From Cupriavidus necator (GTDB lineage: Bacteria; Pseudomonadota; Gammaproteobacteria; Burkholderiales; Burkholderiaceae): a stretch of 64,000 nucleotides of DNA. Both the position numbers and the translations under genes were made by a program. Positions within the stretch are counted from its first letter, which is position 1. Every line of letters begins with the position of its first letter. The stretch lies in contig NZ_SROX01000023.1 of the NCBI RefSeq assembly GCF_013141915.1, forward strand, positions 1 through 64,000, written 5' to 3'. Under the pieces are notes generated by a model. The model was not told the origin of the DNA. It saw only the letters and a program-made list of their open reading frames with translations, and did not search any database. Below are positions 41,533-53,283 of this stretch, piece by piece.

Positions 41533-41588
41533 AAGTCACGCAACCGTCATCGCCGGGTCACGGCACTGTCACCGGCCCTGACTACATT
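41533..41588 (+). promoter_or_regulatory. Four phased PhoB half-sites and -10 element ahead of olsB
   Basis: Seven-base units AAGTCAC (41533), CCGTCAT (41544), GGGTCAC (41555) and CTGTCAC (41566) recur at exactly 11-bp intervals, each separated by 4 bp. This is the geometry of tandem Pho boxes (consensus CTGTCAT, 4 bp, CTGTCAT). The last unit ends 10 bp before TACATT (41583-41588), a good -10, as in PhoB-activated promoters where the box replaces the -35. Confidence 0.8.
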
Positions 41589-41624
41589 GCATCGCAACAG
41601 TTACGTCACCAAAAGGACATACTG

Positions 41625-42467
41625 ATGCGAGATCTGCCGACGCCTACCCAGCCGCTCTTCGACTCCCTGCCCAATGGCCTCGGCGGCCAGACGGCGCGGA
41701 GGCGTCTTCATCGCCCATCGGATACACCGGCACATGAGTCGCCTGTTCTCAGCGTGGCGTGGGCGCGCCACCAGGATGAAGTAGTCGAGGCCCAGCGCCT
41801 GCGCTACAAGGTCTTTGCCGAGGAAATGGGCGCGCGCCTGACGTCTTCGGTGCCCGAACTGGACATCGACATGTTCGATGCCTACTGCGACCACCTGATC
41901 GTGCGCGACCAGGCCACGCTGCGCGTGGTCGGTACCTACCGGGTGTTGCCGCCGCACCAGGCCAAGCGCCTGGGCTGCCTGTACGCCGAATCCGAATTCG
42001 ACCTGGTGCGCCTGTCGCACCTGCGCCCCAAGATGCTGGAACTGGGCCGCTCATGCGTGCACCGCGACTACCGCTCGGGCAGCGTCATCATGGCCTTGTG
42101 GGGCGGGCTGGGCGAGTACCTGCAGCGCTGGGGCATCGAGTCCATGCTGGGCTGCGCCAGCGTGCCGATGAGCGACGGCGGCCACTACGCCGCCAGCCTG
42201 CACCGGCTGTTCAGCGAGCGCTCGCTGGCGCCAATCGAGTACCACGCCTGCCCGCGCCTGCCGCTGCCGGTGGAAGACCTGAACCAGCAGCTGGCGGTCG
42301 AGCCGCCCGCGCTGATCAAGGGCTACCTGCGCCTGGGCGCGAAGATCTGCGGCCAGCCCGCCTGGGACCCGGATTTCAACGTGGCGGACTTTCTCACACT
42401 GCTGCGCGTGAATGACATGAACCCGCGCTACGCCCGCCACTTCCTGGGCCTGAACAACGCCGCCTGA
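41625..42467 (+). CDS. olsB: Ornithine N-alpha-acyltransferase OlsB (GNAT fold)
   Basis: OlsB moves a 3-hydroxyacyl chain from acyl-ACP to ornithine, the first step of ornithine lipid synthesis; OlsA would finish the lipid and is not in this window. The 280-residue product belongs to the COG3176 acyltransferase group, often mislabelled haemolysin. It has VAWARHQDEVVEAQRLRYKVF at the N-terminal side of the fold, then RVVGTYRVLPP and the CoA/ACP-loop region LELGRSCVHRDYRSGSVI. AAGGAC precedes the ATG. Four PhoB half-sites upstream suggest induction by phosphate starvation. Confidence 0.85.
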   Translation: MRDLPTPTQPLFDSLPNGLGGQTARRRLHRPSDTPAHESPVLSVAWARHQDEVVEAQRLRYKVFAEEMGARLTSSVPELDIDMFDAYCDHLIVRDQATLRVVGTYRVLPPHQAKRLGCLYAESEFDLVRLSHLRPKMLELGRSCVHRDYRSGSVIMALWGGLGEYLQRWGIESMLGCASVPMSDGGHYAASLHRLFSERSLAPIEYHACPRLPLPVEDLNQQLAVEPPALIKGYLRLGAKICGQPAWDPDFNVADFLTLLRVNDMNPRYARHFLGLNNAA

Positions 42468-44172: not shown

Positions 44173-44204
44173 TTGTCATGTCCGCATCATGACAAAATTA
44201 AATT
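44173..44204 (+). promoter_or_regulatory. Candidate Pho box and -10 ahead of ppk
   Basis: TTGTCAT (44173-44179), 4 bp, GCATCAT (44184-44190), with TAAATT (44199-44204) as a possible -10. Two more TTGTCAT units lie nearby, one inverted (44189-44195) and one direct (44203-44209), so PhoB could also face ppx. The second half-site is a weaker match. Confidence 0.5.
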
Positions 44205-44265
44205 GTCATGAAAGTGACACGATTCTATGAAAAAGTCGCCACATCACCAAAAGAAGGTCATGACC

Positions 44266-46405: not shown

Positions 46406-47788
46406 TCAGGCGGCGCGCCGCGAACTGTCCGGTGATTGCGGCGCGATCGTCGGACCTGCCCCCGGCACCGGGCTGTCCGCGCTTTCGGCGGCGGAGCGCT
46501 GGCTGCGCTCCTGCGGGAACACCACGCGGAACACGCTGCCCCGGCCCTCCTCGCTGGTGACACGCAGTTCCGCATGGTGGCGCGACAGCACGTGCTTGAC
46601 GATGGCCAGGCCCAGCCCGGTCCCGCCGGTGTCGCGCGAGCGGCTGCGGTCGACGCGGTAGAAGCGCTCAGTCAGGCGGGGAATATGCTCGGGCGCGATG
46701 CCCAGGCCAGTATCGGTCACCGAAAACACCGCGTGGCCGTCTTCCCAGGCCAGCCGCATGGTGATACGGCCGCCCTCCGGGGTGTAGCGCACGGCGTTCG
46801 AGACCAGGTTGCCCAGCGCGGACATCAGTTCGGTCTCCGCGCCCCGCATGCCCACGGTCGGGTCGATCTCCGCGGCGACATGGTGCCGGCCCTGCGACAG
46901 CGCCTCGGCGTCGTGCATCAGGTGCGCCACCATGGCGCGGATCGGCACCACGTCATGGCCGGGCGGCTGCGCGTCGCTTTCCAGCCTGGCCAGCGCCAGC
47001 AAGTCTTCGACGATGCTTTGCATGCGCACCGACTGCGCCAGCATCATGTCGATGTAGCGGCGCCGGTCATCCTCCGACACCGGCAGGTCGCGCACGGTCT
47101 CGAGGAAGCCGGTCATCACCGTCAGCGGCGTCTTCAGTTCATGCGAGACATTGGCGACGAAGTCGCGCCGCATCGCCTCGGTGTTCTCCAGCTTGGTGAT
47201 GTCCTGCGTGATCACCAGCTTGCGGTTGTCGCCGTAGGGCAGGATCTGGACCGCGATCACGCTGTGCTTGTGCTCGCCCATGTCGCGCATCACCAGCGGA
47301 TCGTCGAACTGCTGCCGCGTCAGGTAGTGGACGAACTCCGGCCGGCGGATCAGGTGAGTGATGCGCTGGCGCACGTCGCGCCGCGCGTTCAGGCCGAAAT
47401 GCTGCTCGGCGACGTCGTTGCACCATTCGATCTGGTCGGCGTCATCGAGCATCAGCACGCCGTTGGGCGAGGCCTGGATCGCCTGGATAAAGCGCGTGTG
47501 CTGCTGCTCGACCTGCAGCACCTGGGTGCGCCAGCGCTTGACCAGCCGGTGCAGGCGGTAATACACCTCGCCCCACAGGCCGAGCGCGCTGGGAATCTCG
47601 CCGTAGACCGGCGCGTCCAGCACCTTCCACAGCCGGTTGATCTGGTACAGGTAGTAGAACAGCAGCCCGAGCAGCGAAACGCAGGCCAGCGCCAGCGCCG
47701 GCACCGGGCCGACGGCCAGGTAGACGCCGGCGGACAGCACCAGCAGGCTGATCAGGATGGCCACGGAACGGGCCCAGATGACATTCAT
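46406..47788 (-). CDS. phoR: Phosphate regulon sensor histidine kinase PhoR
   Basis: PhoR phosphorylates PhoB when phosphate is scarce. The 460-residue product has two membrane helices close together at the N-terminus (about 8-25 and 30-48) with almost no periplasmic loop, as usual for PhoR. A charged linker and a PAS domain (IQASPNGVLMLDDADQIEWCN) follow. The H-box is VSHELKTPL with His216, and the kinase has the N-box NLVSNAVRYTP, G1 DTGLGI and G2 GTGLGLAIV. The C-terminal 25 residues are low-complexity. It is the last gene of the pst-pho cluster, 113 bp after phoB. Confidence 0.95.
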   Translation of the reverse strand: MNVIWARSVAILISLLVLSAGVYLAVGPVPALALACVSLLGLLFYYLYQINRLWKVLDAPVYGEIPSALGLWGEVYYRLHRLVKRWRTQVLQVEQQHTRFIQAIQASPNGVLMLDDADQIEWCNDVAEQHFGLNARRDVRQRITHLIRRPEFVHYLTRQQFDDPLVMRDMGEHKHSVIAVQILPYGDNRKLVITQDITKLENTEAMRRDFVANVSHELKTPLTVMTGFLETVRDLPVSEDDRRRYIDMMLAQSVRMQSIVEDLLALARLESDAQPPGHDVVPIRAMVAHLMHDAEALSQGRHHVAAEIDPTVGMRGAETELMSALGNLVSNAVRYTPEGGRITMRLAWEDGHAVFSVTDTGLGIAPEHIPRLTERFYRVDRSRSRDTGGTGLGLAIVKHVLSRHHAELRVTSEEGRGSVFRVVFPQERSQRSAAESADSPVPGAGPTIAPQSPDSSRRAA

Positions 47789-47901
47789 GCGCAGGGTTCA
47801 GGCTCGCAGCCAGCCCGGGAATCGGCTGGCTGCAGGGTTGCGACGGAGTGTGCCACGATTTCGCCGCGCCCTGCCAGCGGCGTGGGCCCCCGCCCGGCGC
47901 C

Positions 47902-48609
47902 TCAGGCGCCCGGGGTGCGCGCGAGCCGGTAGCCGCTGCCGCGCACGGTTTCGATCATGTTGCTGTAGCCGCCGGGGGTCAGCGCCGCGCGCAGGCGCTT
48001 GATATGGACGTCGACGGTGCGTTCCTCGACAAAGACATGGTCGCCCCACACCTGGTCGAGCAATTGCGACCGGCTGTGCACCCGCTCAGGGTGCGTCATC
48101 AGGAAGTGCAGGAGGCGGAACTCGGTGGGGCCCAGGTCCAGCTTGATCGGGCCGCTGTCGTCCTGGCCGGTGACCCGGTGCGTGGCGGGATCCAGCCGCA
48201 GCCCGTTGATTGCCACCACGTCGTCGGTCAACTGCGGCGCGCGGCGGCGCAGCACGGCCTTGATCCGCGCCAGCAATTCCTTGGGCGAGAACGGCTTGGT
48301 GACATAGTCGTCGGCACCGGCTTCCAGCCCCATCACCTTGTCCTGCTCCTCGCCGCGCGCGGTCAGCATGATGATCGGAATCTGCCGGGTGCGGTCGTTG
48401 GCGCGCAACTCCTTGGCGAAGTTCGCGCCCGACTTGCCCGGGAGCATCCAGTCGAGCAGCACCAGGTCGGGCAGCACGTCGCTCATCAGCGACAGCGCCT
48501 GCTCGGCGTTATAGGCCCGGATCGGATAGTGCCCCGCGTGCTGCAGGTTCACGGCGATCAGCTCGGCGATCGCCGGTTCGTCTTCGACAACGAGAATACT
48601 GCTAGGCAT
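47902..48609 (-). CDS. phoB: Phosphate regulon response regulator PhoB
   Basis: PhoB activates phosphate-starvation genes by binding Pho boxes. The 235-residue product has a receiver domain with acidic residues at VEDEP, phosphoacceptor Asp53 in LLDWMLPGKSG and Lys in YVTKPFS, then a winged-helix domain of the OmpR type (LGPTEFRLLHFLMTHPERVHSRSQLLDQVWG and VDVHIKRLRAAL). GGAGA precedes the ATG. It lies 28 bp after phoU on the same strand. Three candidate target sites are present in this window. Confidence 0.97.
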   Translation of the reverse strand: MPSSILVVEDEPAIAELIAVNLQHAGHYPIRAYNAEQALSLMSDVLPDLVLLDWMLPGKSGANFAKELRANDRTRQIPIIMLTARGEEQDKVMGLEAGADDYVTKPFSPKELLARIKAVLRRRAPQLTDDVVAINGLRLDPATHRVTGQDDSGPIKLDLGPTEFRLLHFLMTHPERVHSRSQLLDQVWGDHVFVEERTVDVHIKRLRAALTPGGYSNMIETVRGSGYRLARTPGA

Positions 48610-48637
48610 GTGTATGGTTCTCCGTGGGCGGCTGATC

Positions 48638-49342
48638 TCAGCTCAGCGCTTCGCGCTCCATGTCCTCGCGCGAGACATGGCGGACGTCCGTCCCCTTGAC
48701 AATGTAAATAATAAATTCCGCGATGTTCTTGGCATGATCGCCGATGCGCTCGACGGCCTTGGCGATGAACAGGAAATCCAGCGCGACCGAGATCGTGCGC
48801 GGGTCCTCCATCATGTACGTGATCAGCTTGCGCACGAAGCCGCGGAATTCCTCGTCGATGGCCTTGTCGTCCTTGACGATGCGCGCCGCCGCCACCGTGT
48901 CGAGCCGGGCAAAGGCGTCCAGCGCCTGGCGCAGCAGCGAGATCGCCATCTCGCCCGACAGCTTGACCTCGGCGTAGTTGATGCTGTGCGCCGACGCATC
49001 TTCCATGATGTGCTTGGTGCGCTTGGCGATTTTTTCGGCCTCGTCGCCGGCGCGCTCCAGGTTGGTGATGGTCTTCGAGATGGCCATCACCAGGCGCAGG
49101 TCGCGCGCGGTCGGCTGGCGCCGGGCGATGATATTGCCGCAATCGGCATCGATCTCGACTTCCAGCGCGTTGAGCTCCAGCTCGCGGGCGATGACCTGGT
49201 CGGCGGCCTCGCCGTCGAAGTCGGTCAGCGCGCGCATGGCCATCTCGATCTGCGACTCGACCAGCCCGCCCATCTGCAGCAGCTTGGTATTGATGGCGTT
49301 GAGGTCGGCGTCGAACTGGGTCGACAGATGCTTGTCAGTCAT
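48638..49342 (-). CDS. phoU: Phosphate transport regulator PhoU
   Basis: PhoU links the Pst transporter to PhoR and holds the kinase off when phosphate is plentiful. The 234-residue all-helical product has two PhoU repeats, each with the metal-binding pattern. The first includes ISKTITNLERAGDEAEKIAKR and the second FIAKAVERIGDHAKNIAEFIIY. A GGAGA ribosome-binding site precedes the ATG. It lies 47 bp after pstB in the usual order. Confidence 0.97.
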   Translation of the reverse strand: MTDKHLSTQFDADLNAINTKLLQMGGLVESQIEMAMRALTDFDGEAADQVIARELELNALEVEIDADCGNIIARRQPTARDLRLVMAISKTITNLERAGDEAEKIAKRTKHIMEDASAHSINYAEVKLSGEMAISLLRQALDAFARLDTVAAARIVKDDKAIDEEFRGFVRKLITYMMEDPRTISVALDFLFIAKAVERIGDHAKNIAEFIIYIVKGTDVRHVSREDMEREALS

Positions 49343-49389
49343 GGGATTCTCCTGGCCGCTTATGGATATGCTAGTCCCTGCTTTGCCCG

Positions 49390-50178
49390 TCAGCCGAACC
49401 GGCCGGTAATGTAGTCTTCCGTTTCCTTGCGGTGCGGCTTGATGAAGATCTTCTCGGTCTCGCCGAACTCGATCAGTTCGCCCAGATACATGTAAGCGGT
49501 GTAGTCGGAGCAGCGCGCCGCCTGCTGCATGTTGTGCGTCACGATCACCACGGTGTACTCGTCCTTCAGTTCCGCGATCAGCTCTTCGATGCGGCCGGTG
49601 GAAATCGGGTCGAGCGCCGAGCATGGCTCGTCCAGCAGCAGCACCTCGGGGCGGATGGCGATGCCGCGCGCGATGCACAGCCGCTGCTGCTGGCCGCCGG
49701 ACAGGCCGTAGCCCGATTGGTGCAGCTTGTCCTTGGCCTCGTTCCACAGTGCCGCCTTGGTCAGCGCCCACTCCACGCGGTCATCCATTTCCGAGCGCGA
49801 CAGCTTCTCGAACAGGCGCACGCCGAAGGCGATGTTGTCGTAGATCGACATCGGGAACGGCGTCGGCTTCTGGAACACCATGCCGACCTTGGCGCGCAGC
49901 AGCGCGATGTCCTGCCTGGCGGTCAGCAGGTTGTCGCCGTCCATGTTGATCTCGCCCTCGGCGCGCTGCTCGGGATAAAGCGCGTACATCTTGTTGAAGG
50001 TACGCAGCAGCGTCGACTTGCCGCATCCCGACGGGCCGATGAAGGCCGTGACCTTGCGGTCCGGGATCGACATGTTGATGTCCTTCAGCGCATGGAACTG
50101 GCCGTAGTAGAAGTTCAGGTTGCGCACGTCGATCTTGGCGCGTACCGAATCGGGAATGTCGATGACGGTGGAGGTCAT
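49390..50178 (-). CDS. pstB: Phosphate ABC transporter ATP-binding protein PstB
   Basis: ATPase of the high-affinity phosphate importer, 262 residues. Walker [10 protein letters not shown] is at 48-56, the signature is [16 protein letters not shown] and Walker B is [15 protein letters not shown], with the H-loop [27 protein letters not shown]. All are standard for PstB. It starts 51 bp after pstA. Confidence 0.97.
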
Positions 50179-50229
50179 TGCGTTTTCTCGCTTGCAGTCT
50201 TGGGGCGGGGCGGATACCGGCCGCGCCGC

Positions 50230-51132
50230 TTATTTCTTGAACAGGATGCGCGCCAGGATATTCAGGGCCAGCACACCGATCGTAATCAGGAACACACCCG
50301 CCCAGGCCAGCTGCTGCCATTCGGTGAACGGGCTCATGGCAAAGCGGAAGATCGTCACCGGCAAGTTGGCCATCGGCTTGTTCAGGTCGCTGGTCCAGAA
50401 CTGGTTGGACAGCGCGGTGAACAGCAGCGGCGCGGTTTCGCCGGCGATGCGGGCCACCGCGAGCAACACGCCGGTCACAATCCCGGCGTACGATGACTTT
50501 ACCGTGATCGACAGCACCATTTTCCACTTGGGCGTGCCCAGTGCGAAGGCTGCCTCGCGCAACGCGTTGGGCACCAGGTTCAGCATGTTCTCGGTGGTGC
50601 GCACCACGATCGGCACTTGCAGCAGCGCCAGCGCGCAGATGCCCGCCCAGCCCGAAAAGTGGCCCATGCGGGTCACCACCAGCGCGTAGACAAAGAGTCC
50701 GATCACGATCGACGGCGCCGACAGCAGGATGTCGTTGATAAACCGGATCAGGCTGGCCAGCGGCGAGCTCTTGCCGTACTCAGCCAGGTAGATGCCGGCC
50801 AGGATGCCCAGCGGCGTGCCGAACAGCGTGGCCATGCCGACCATCACGAAGCTGCCGAAGATCGCGTTGGCCAGGCCACCGCCGGCGGTATTGGGGGCCG
50901 GGGTCATCTGCGTGAACAGGTCCAGCGACAGTCCGCCCACGCCCAGCGAGACGGTGGTCCACAGGATCCACGCCAGCCAGAACAGGCCGAAGCCCATGGC
51001 CACCAGCGACGCGGTCAGCGCGTACAGGTTGACGCGGCGGCGGCGGCCCTGCAGGCGCGCGCGCACCGCATCGGCATCAGGGCGCACCGCGGGAATCGAT
51101 ACAGAAGACACGGCTTGACTCGCTTGGCTCAT
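50230..51132 (-). CDS. pstA: Phosphate ABC transporter permease PstA
   Basis: Inner-membrane permease, 300 residues and six helices. It begins with a charged cytoplasmic stretch ([15 protein letters not shown]) and has [23 protein letters not shown] and the coupling loop [22 protein letters not shown] of PstA proteins. Its ATG overlaps the pstC stop by 4 nt (ATGA). Confidence 0.96.
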
Positions 51133-52097
51133 TTGGCGCCCTCATTTTTTGCCAGTCGCAGCAGCAACAGCTTGGACAGCGCCAGCACCACGAAGGTAAT
51201 GAAGAACAGGATCAGGCCCAGCTCCATCAGCGCGGCCGTATGCAAGCCGGCGCCGGCTTCGGCGAACTCGTTGGCGAGCGCCGAGGTGATGCTGTTGCCC
51301 GGCGAAAACAGCGAGGCGCTGTCCAGCAGGTTGGTATTGCCGATGACGAAGGTGACCGCCATGGTCTCGCCCAGCGCGCGGCCCAGGCCCAGCATTACGC
51401 CGCCGATGACGCCGGCGCGGGTGTAGGGCAGCACCACGTTCCACATCACTTCCCAGGTGGTGCAGCCCACACCGTAGGCGGATTCCTTGAGCAGCACCGG
51501 CGTGACCTCGAACACGTCGCGCATCACCGAGGCGATGTACGGAATGATCATGATCGCCAGGATCACCCCCGCGCACAGCAGGCCGATGCCCAGCGGCGCT
51601 CCCTGGAACAGCTTGCCGATCACCGGCAGCTGGCCCACCGTGGCGGCCAGGGGCTTCTGGAAATACTCGCCGAAGATCGGTGCGAACACCAGCAGGCCCC
51701 ACATGCCGTACACGATCGACGGCACCGCGGCCAGCAGCTCGATGGCGGTGCCGAGCGGCCGGCGCAGCCAGGCGGGCGACAGCTCGGTCAGGAACAGGGC
51801 GATGCCGAAGCTGACCGGCACCGCGATGATCAGTGCGATCAGCGAGGTCACGATAGTGCCGTAGATCGGCACCAGCGCGCCATAGACATCGGCGGGGGGA
51901 TCCCACTCCGCGGACCACAGGAAGCGCGCGCCGAAGGTCTGGATCGAGGGCCACGCGCTGATCGCCAGCGAGACGATGATGCCGCCCAGCAGCAGCAGCG
52001 TCACGATGGCGGCGCCGCGCGTGAGGCCGCCGAACAGGAGGTCGCCAAGCCGGCTTGGAGGCTGGACGCTGCGGGTGTCGGAGGGGATAGTCGCCAT
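51129..52097 (-). CDS. pstC: Phosphate ABC transporter permease PstC
   Basis: Second permease of the importer, 322 residues. It has the long first periplasmic loop ([20 protein letters not shown]), the [15 protein letters not shown] segment and the coupling loop [21 protein letters not shown] use the ATG at 52097. An in-frame ATG 16 codons upstream falls in the hairpin region after pstS and is unlikely. pstS and pstC are 70 bp apart, with a stable hairpin between them. Confidence 0.95.
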
Positions 52098-52119
52098 GTC
52101 GGAAAATTCGGGAGGGTTC

Positions 52120-52155
52120 GCCGGCCCGCGCGTGCACGCGTGCACGCGAGCCGGC
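52120..52155 (-). promoter_or_regulatory. Stable hairpin between pstS and pstC
   Basis: GCCGGC at both ends pairs, and inside a near-continuous palindrome GCGTGCACG/CGTGCACGC forms the upper stem. It starts 12 nt after the pstS stop and has no T-run, so it looks like an mRNA-stabilising or partial-stop element rather than a full terminator. Confidence 0.6.
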
Positions 52156-52167
52156 GATACCGTCAGA

Positions 52168-53199
52168 TCAGTACAGCGCCTTGCCTGCAGAGTCCTTGAC
52201 GATCGTCTTCCAGGTCGTGCGGATCTGGTTGACGACGTTTTCCGGCAGCGGCACGTAGTCCAGGTCGGCGGCCATGCCGGTGCCGTTCTTGTAGGCCCAG
52301 TCGAAGAACTTCAGCACTTCCGCGCCCTGTGCCGGCTTGTCCTGGTTCTTGTGCACCAGGATGAAGGTCGCGCCGGCGATCGGCCAGGCATCCTTGCCCG
52401 ACTGGTTGGTCAGGATCTGGTAGTAGCTCTTGCTCCAGTCCGCGCCGGCGGCAGCCGCCTTGAAGGCGTCGTCGCCCGGCTTGACCACGGCACCCGACGC
52501 GTTCTTCATGTTCAGGTGGGTCATCTTGTTCTGCTTGGCGTAGGCGTACTCGACATAGCCAATGGCGCCGTTCAGGCGCTGCACGAAGGCGGCCACGCCC
52601 TCGTTGCCCTTGCCGCCGGTACCGCCGCCCGGCCAGTTGACCGTGGTGCCCTCGCCCACCGTGCTCTTCCAGTCAGCGCTGACCTTGGACAGGTAGTTGG
52701 TGAAGATGAAGGTGGTGCCCGAGCCGTCGGCGCGACGCACCGGCAGGATGTCCTGGCTGGGCAGCTTGGCGTGGGGGTTCAGCGCCTTGATCGCGGGATC
52801 GTCCCACTTCTTGATCTTGCCCAGGTAGATGTTGGCCAGCACTTCGCCGGTGATGGTCAGTTCGCCCGGTTTCACGCCTTGCAGGTTGATCACCGGCACC
52901 ACGCCGCCGATCACCGTGGGGAACTGGACCAGGCCCTGCTTGTTCAGATCCTCGTCCTTCAGCGGCGCGTCCGAGGCACCGAAATCGACTGTCTTGGCGC
53001 CAATCTGCTTGATGCCGCCCGACGAGCCGATCGATTGATAGTTGACCTTGTTGCCCGTTGCCTTGTTATATGCGTCGGCCCACTTGGAATACACGGGCGC
53101 CGGGAAAGACGCGCCTGCACCGGTAATTTCCGCCGCGAACGCAGTACCCGCCACCACCATCGAAACGATGCCTGCCACGGCAGTCTTGACCAGCTTCAT
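52168..53199 (-). CDS. pstS: Phosphate-binding protein PstS
   Basis: Periplasmic receptor of the Pst importer, 343 residues. A signal peptide ([22 protein letters not shown]) is followed by [23 protein letters not shown], the first phosphate-binding loop. Others are [22 protein letters not shown] and [18 protein letters not shown] strong GGAGGA ribosome-binding site lies ahead of the ATG. Two Pho boxes lie upstream, so it should be the most strongly phosphate-regulated gene of the operon. It is the first gene of pstSCAB-phoUBR. Confidence 0.97.
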
Positions 53200-53226: not shown

Positions 53227-53283
53227 ATGACAAATTTTTGACAAGACGAACTTTATGCTGGCTGTATGACAATTCCGTGACAT
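53227..53283 (-). promoter_or_regulatory. Two Pho boxes in the pstS promoter
   Basis: Read on the minus strand, the distal box is ATGTCAC, 4 bp, TTGTCAT (53283 to 53266). The proximal box is TTGTCAA, 4 bp, TTGTCAT (53244 to 53227). A possible -10, CATAAA (53252-53257), lies 8 bp after the distal box. The 11-bp spacing and the position ahead of pstS support PhoB binding. Confidence 0.82.

Follow-up and report, generated by a model that had tools for sequence, protein, structure and literature searches.

The olsB-like gene of Cupriavidus necator is preceded by four predicted PhoB half-sites in exact 11-bp phase. The explanation that we consider best, and highly probable, is that they form a double Pho box through which PhoB would drive olsB and a switch to ornithine lipid, in one module with a likely plcP-agt-dgkA operon elsewhere in the genome. 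The direct basis for this is the array itself, its spacing and conservation, the PhoB/PhoR orthologues, and a geometry in common with pstS of E. coli; on these sequence features, PhoB control of olsB is very likely. Pho boxes at olsB have already been published (Burkholderia sensu lato, Acinetobacter), and it is the two-pathway module that is the fresh part.

Table 1. Positions of the olsB promoter elements, the neighbouring phosphate genes and the likely glycolipid operon. Positions are those of the window, i.e. the whole 64,000-nt stretch of DNA that was analysed, unless a contig is named.
Feature	Position	Strand	Remarks
Predicted PhoB half-site 1, AAGTCAC	41533..41539	+	GTCAY in 57/59, NTCAY in 59/59 Cupriavidus promoters
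Predicted PhoB half-site 2, CCGTCAT	41544..41550	+	GTCAY in 59/59 Cupriavidus promoters
Predicted PhoB half-site 3, GGGTCAC	41555..41561	+	Weakest unit; GTCAY in 26/59, NTCAY in 56/59
Predicted PhoB half-site 4, CTGTCAC	41566..41572	+	At the -35 place; GTCAY in 59/59 Cupriavidus promoters
-10 element, TACATT	41583..41588	+	10 bp past half-site 4; invariant, 59/59
GTCAC in olsB leader	41605..41609	+	37 bp past unit 4, out of phase
olsB, ornithine N-acyltransferase-like gene	41625..42467	+	ATG at 41625; PF13444 over cut-off
phoR	46406..47788	-	TIGR02966, 452 bits (cut-off 334.2)
phoB	47902..48609	-	TIGR02154, 347.6 bits (cut-off 296.2)
pstS	52168..53199	-	NF008171, 530.8 bits (cut-off 339)
Pho box of pst operon, ATGTCACGGAATTGTCAT	53266..53283	-	Natural positive control
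Likely plcP-agt-dgkA operon	L068:2181-4827 = contig C12 19180-21826	-	Behind the second exact four-unit array

The array in front of olsB and the neighbouring phosphate genes

The GTCAY cores of the array start at 41535, 41546, 41557 and 41568, an exact 11-bp step throughout, and ten bases (41573-41582) lie between half-site 4 and TACATT; the coordinates thus bear out both the exact phase and the 10-bp gap claimed in an earlier, sequence-only reading of this DNA. A search of the window for four-unit GTCAY with up to three mismatches returned the olsB array as its single match, with 0 mismatches, at a chance expectation of 0.03 (a match in 3 of 100 dinucleotide shuffles at the same tolerance). 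Scanned with a simple half-site score, the window had its top four-unit score at the same place, 39.0 against maxima of 28.5-31.5 in 20 first-order Markov windows, and the best two-unit scores, 20.0 each, fell on the pstS box and on units 3-4 of the olsB array. Direct repeats of approximately CTGTCAY in 11-bp steps, standing in the -35 place and about 10 bp from the -10, are the marks of a double Pho box, and the sequence supports the one that had been claimed here, E. coli pstS sharing its unit, step and -10 distance. The leader between promoter and gene also holds a GTCAC (Table 1), and a GTCAY falls within its last 30 nt in 59/59 Cupriavidus promoters; the strong conservation of the leader may reflect a ribosome site or the leader itself, not PhoB.

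The gene behind the array encodes a protein whose PF13444 acyltransferase domain scores 129 bits (cut-off 22.4), and the best named NCBIfam models for it are two OlsB equivalogs, both below cut-off (169.7 of 320 and 166.7 of 350 bits). Because neither curated cut-off is reached, we call the gene OlsB-like, by homology only; the OlsB proteins of C. neocaledonicus, C. alkaliphilus and C. necator UYPR2.512 are 98-99% identical to it. The product of OlsB is lyso-ornithine lipid. The name 'ornithine lipid synthase' given in the earlier reading needs a small correction: by its family, OlsB is the first enzyme, the ornithine N-acyltransferase, and not the whole synthase. A likely OlsA is encoded elsewhere in the genome, beside a gene that by eye looks like pyrC (OlsA model 132.8 bits, cut-off 300), and the 300 bp upstream of it hold no array (best four-unit score 21.0).

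The claimed nearness to phoBR, pst and ppk also holds: phoR, phoB, phoU, pstB, pstA, pstC and pstS succeed one another on the minus strand (46406-53199), ppx and ppk are located between olsB and this run, and each of the nine genes scores over at least one curated NCBIfam cut-off, with phoB and phoR 4-7 kb from the olsB array. The DNA-binding domain of PhoB aligns end to end with that of the E. coli PhoB in the PhoB-DNA structure 1gxp, and the recognition-helix stretch, presumed to hold the DNA-touching residues, reads RTVDVHIKRLR here and RTVDVHIRRLR in E. coli. The pst operon provides a positive control from the same window (Table 1), and the pstS promoter has GTCACGGAATTGTCAT. GTCAY-N6-GTCAY is present in 30/30 Cupriavidus pstS promoters examined (40 genomes searched), and the core of the olsB half-site is the core of this conserved box.

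Two further observations concern the phosphate genes themselves. A second 11-bp pair, TTGTCAAAAATTTGTCAT (53227-53244, minus strand), follows the pstS -10, close to where transcription probably starts; as GTCAA-N6-G[TA]CAT it is kept in 30/30 Cupriavidus pstS leaders, and it perhaps serves autoregulation. Weak two-unit Pho-like pairs occur on both strands (44178-44220) in the stretch from which ppx and ppk diverge.

Conservation of the olsB promoter

OlsB was found in 60/60 Cupriavidus genomes searched, and 60 olsB loci from 59 of these were examined, one genome (G032) being left out because its match starts at a contig end. With the divergent second olsB copy of G049 set aside (locus L065, 66% identity, with neither array nor TACATT), the phased array and TACATT are kept in 59/59 promoters, and the conservation across Cupriavidus that the sequence-only reading had predicted is found. 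The pattern is exact, as TCAY x4, at 56 of the 60 loci. Across the 59 promoters the TCA cores carry 1.7-2.0 bits, whereas the 12 positions preceding the array have 0.06-0.61 bits and are nearly random. A plasmid collection searched with the olsB promoter gave no match.

Family-wide, OlsB matches were obtained in 132 of 150 genomes. Outside Cupriavidus 118 genomes had a match, and in 96 of them the 250 bp before it were scored, with the 99% shuffle level as threshold. The 11-bp four-unit array precedes olsB at 75/96 of these loci, and periods of 8-10 and 12-14 bp gave no signal there comparable to 11 bp. All loci pass in eleven of the genus groups: g4 (1/1), g9 (13/13), g10 (8/8), g11 (10/10), g13 (3/3), g15 (2/2), g16 (3/3), g17 (1/1), g20 (11/11), g24 (13/13) and g25 (8/8). 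An array directly before olsB is absent from g7 (0/4), g18 (0/3), g21 (0/4), g22 (0/3) and g23 (0/1), which together with six loci of g12, where 2/8 pass, make up the 21/96 loci lacking it; among these an explanation, given below, can be offered for g12 alone. Of more distant beta-proteobacterial olsB loci (L248, L250-L268), 12/20 pass.

The distance to the -10 is conserved along with the phase. When arrays scoring at least 31 were considered, the -10 match peaked at a spacing of 10 in all genus groups except g24, spacing 8 being tied with it at the one locus of g12. The hexamer at this spacing is TACATT in g1 (59/59), g9 (13/13), g11 (10/10), g13 (3/3), g16 (3/3), g20 (9/11) and g25 (7/8); g10 has TACATT in 2/8 and TAAAGT in the remaining six. 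The forecast that Ralstonia too would keep the four units is upheld only in modified form by g24, which is likely that genus: all four phased units are retained (13/13), but they are positioned farther upstream, and the -10 is a different one. By eye, some three units in a shifted run are followed there by 10 bp and then TAGAAT (12/13), the other locus being a close variant (L123, CACTAGAAT context, also TAGAAT).

A second array and the likely glycolipid genes

The genome (6.97 Mb in 48 contigs) holds two exact matches to TCAY x4 at 11 bp, against 0 for the reversed-pattern control, and two further matches appear when one mismatch is allowed. One exact array is that of olsB; the other is on the minus strand of contig C12 (21790-21826), its end 43 bp short of the ATG at which a 325-aa metallophosphoesterase probably starts, after which come a GT4 glycosyltransferase and a prokaryotic diacylglycerol kinase. 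Among named NCBIfam models the glycosyltransferase fits two for lipid glycosyltransferases best, though it stays under the cut-offs. The phosphoesterase was also considered as LpxH and rejected, with 29.7 bits for that model, the genome's LpxH being found elsewhere at 242.8 bits, over cut-off. A metallophosphoesterase distinct from LpxH and then a GT4 glycosyltransferase is the order of a PlcP-Agt operon, and by this gene order the operon is likely to encode a PlcP-Agt-like glycolipid route. That both exact arrays stand at what look like lipid genes suggests that this soil bacterium would turn its membrane over to phosphorus-free lipids via one shared type of switch.

The plcP-like gene is present in 39/40 Cupriavidus genomes and, with Cupriavidus counted, in 94/120 genomes of the family. 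Its exact array is found at 26 of the 30 Cupriavidus loci examined (absent as exact in L284-L287), and in all 26 the hexamer starting 10 bp on ends in AAT. Outside Cupriavidus, 35/40 plcP promoters beat all 200 shuffles, those failing being two of g9 and three of g10. Over 60 Cupriavidus genomes TCAY x4 had 212 matches, tandem-repeat overlaps included, vs 55 for the reversed control; 40 genomes had no control match, and 27 had exactly two TCAY x4 matches. In at least 17 genomes the two matches are, by eye, one per operon (olsB and plcP), and G028 has a single tandem repeat in addition to its plcP site.

Sites of this kind were also seen apart from the two lipid operons. Three related Cupriavidus genomes have a further four-unit TCAY array (G023 C1:2375762, G039 C1:2086588, G047 C351:52205). 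In the genome studied here, exact three-unit GTCAY occurs at three places besides olsB, on contigs C2, C11 and C12, of which the last is the plcP site. The C2 occurrence appears by eye to be a local tandem repeat; the C11 occurrence (L067:4561-4587, contig positions 553560-553586) consists of three exact phased GTCAT units before a gene for an EAL/GGDEF/CBS protein, and possibly links phosphate to c-di-GMP.

Genus g12 (genomes of 1.7-2.2 Mb, likely Polynucleobacter) has the two pathways in one cluster. The four-unit array precedes plcP in 9/9 intact clusters, and ORFs for plcP, the glycosyltransferase and olsB stand in series on one strand in the same nine, with some 2.5 kb separating the match to plcP from that to olsB; a dgkA-like ORF is found between plcP and olsB in 7/9, and Pfam confirms both of those scanned. 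Most olsB genes of g12 thus lack an array of their own because they are part of a cluster behind the plcP array, and this clustering behind one array ties olsB independently to the glycolipid genes.

Probable phosphate control of lipid replacement, alternatives and known systems

At the E. coli pstS promoter, tandem dimers of phosphorylated PhoB bind with the last half-site in place of the -35 and recruit sigma-70 polymerase. In Cupriavidus, PhoR would phosphorylate PhoB at low phosphate, two head-to-tail PhoB dimers would bind the four half-sites, half-site 4 would replace the -35, and PhoB would recruit sigma-70 polymerase to TACATT; olsB would then be induced and ornithine lipid would take over from phospholipid. 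The binding of PhoB, the induction of olsB and the lipid change are steps that we infer. Since a like promoter stands before plcP-agt-dgkA, aminolipid (olsB) and glycolipid synthesis are probably induced jointly, as one phosphorus-sparing module.

Further regulators of the OmpR/PhoB family are surely present in the genome, and 11-bp direct repeats are common in that family. That one of these binds the array through a similar repeat, with olsB serving some other stress, is nevertheless very improbable, given that the core of the array is that of the conserved pstS box and that its layout, unit and -10 distance are those of E. coli pstS; ornithine lipid has, however, been tied to other stresses as well (PMC12186959). 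That the array arose by chance or is a minisatellite of GTCAY units has next to no probability. Tandem repeats do match the pattern in other Cupriavidus, and the reversed control had 55 matches vs 212 in 60 genomes, but the spacers between the olsB units differ, the reversed control is 0 in the genome itself, and 59/59 promoters, like the wider family, retain position, phase and -10, a conservation that refutes such an origin.

It could also be that PhoB binds, yet olsB is expressed constitutively as well and the site only modulates ornithine lipid, as Burkholderia sensu stricto is reported to have constitutive ornithine lipid despite its predicted Pho boxes (PMC7814305). We judge this unlikely for Cupriavidus: by eye there is no good -35 before TACATT, its place being occupied by the array, and according to the same paper Paraburkholderia, Caballeronia and others are without constitutive ornithine lipid (PMC7814305). 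Weaker units as the cause of constitutive ornithine lipid in Burkholderia sensu stricto were considered and dropped, such weak units being common to several genus groups (g11, g13, g25).

To the PhoB-driven double Pho box we would add, tentatively and with more doubt than conviction, a broader reading, in which the four-half-site PhoB promoter of the Burkholderiaceae is largely reserved for phospholipid replacement (olsB, plcP-agt-dgkA) and has a threshold role; with two tandem dimers, the response could need a high threshold or be late and strong. If so, phospholipids would be surrendered only in severe starvation, after uptake, with its two-unit pstS box, is on. Two operons with one type of array make it testable whether array size orders the phosphate-starvation response. 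Phosphate control of ornithine lipids would also be extended to Cupriavidus, which as a workhorse for bioplastics is grown with nutrients limiting. Among open-licence full texts we found nothing combining ornithine, olsB and Cupriavidus, no paper that by its title is on ornithine lipid in Cupriavidus, and, for combinations of plcP, olsB and Pho box, none naming Polynucleobacter. Likewise, among the best 20 of 2,061 matches in open-licence papers, none was by title on plcP or lipid remodelling in Cupriavidus or Ralstonia, and no description of a Cupriavidus glycolipid route was found.

The olsB array most resembles the pstS promoter of E. coli K-12, where CTGTCAT, CTGTCAT, CTTACAT and CTGTCAC follow at 11-bp steps, 10 bp from TATTTT (strain MG1655): both have four units, a weak third unit and a 10-bp gap to the -10, but the E. 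coli box governs phosphate uptake rather than lipid synthesis, and its spacers are AT-rich. The olsB Pho boxes of Burkholderia sensu lato share both gene family and bacterial family with the array described here. A first matrix predicted them in 21/43 genomes and a new one in 43/43, and P. xenovorans is said ('data not shown') to swap PE for ornithine lipids when phosphate is low; however, the boxes are modelled there as single 18-bp sites, with no four-unit phase found in the passages on them, and Cupriavidus and Ralstonia occur 0 times in the main text (PMC7814305). Acinetobacter baumannii is likewise reported to have a Pho box at olsB though not at olsA, and a phoR deletion was tested in that study, but the organism belongs to another class and its olsB box is single, CTGTCATNNNNCTGTCAT (PMC11828411). 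For the glycolipid genes, putative Pho boxes are described at plcP clusters of marine bacteria (PMC4796936). The PlcP-Agt operon of Pseudomonas aeruginosa, described as one of lipid renovation, has the same phosphoesterase gene, then glycosyltransferase gene, and a Pho box, whereas in the bacteria considered here dgkA is added, the array has four units and, in g12, olsB has joined the cluster (PMC8528852).
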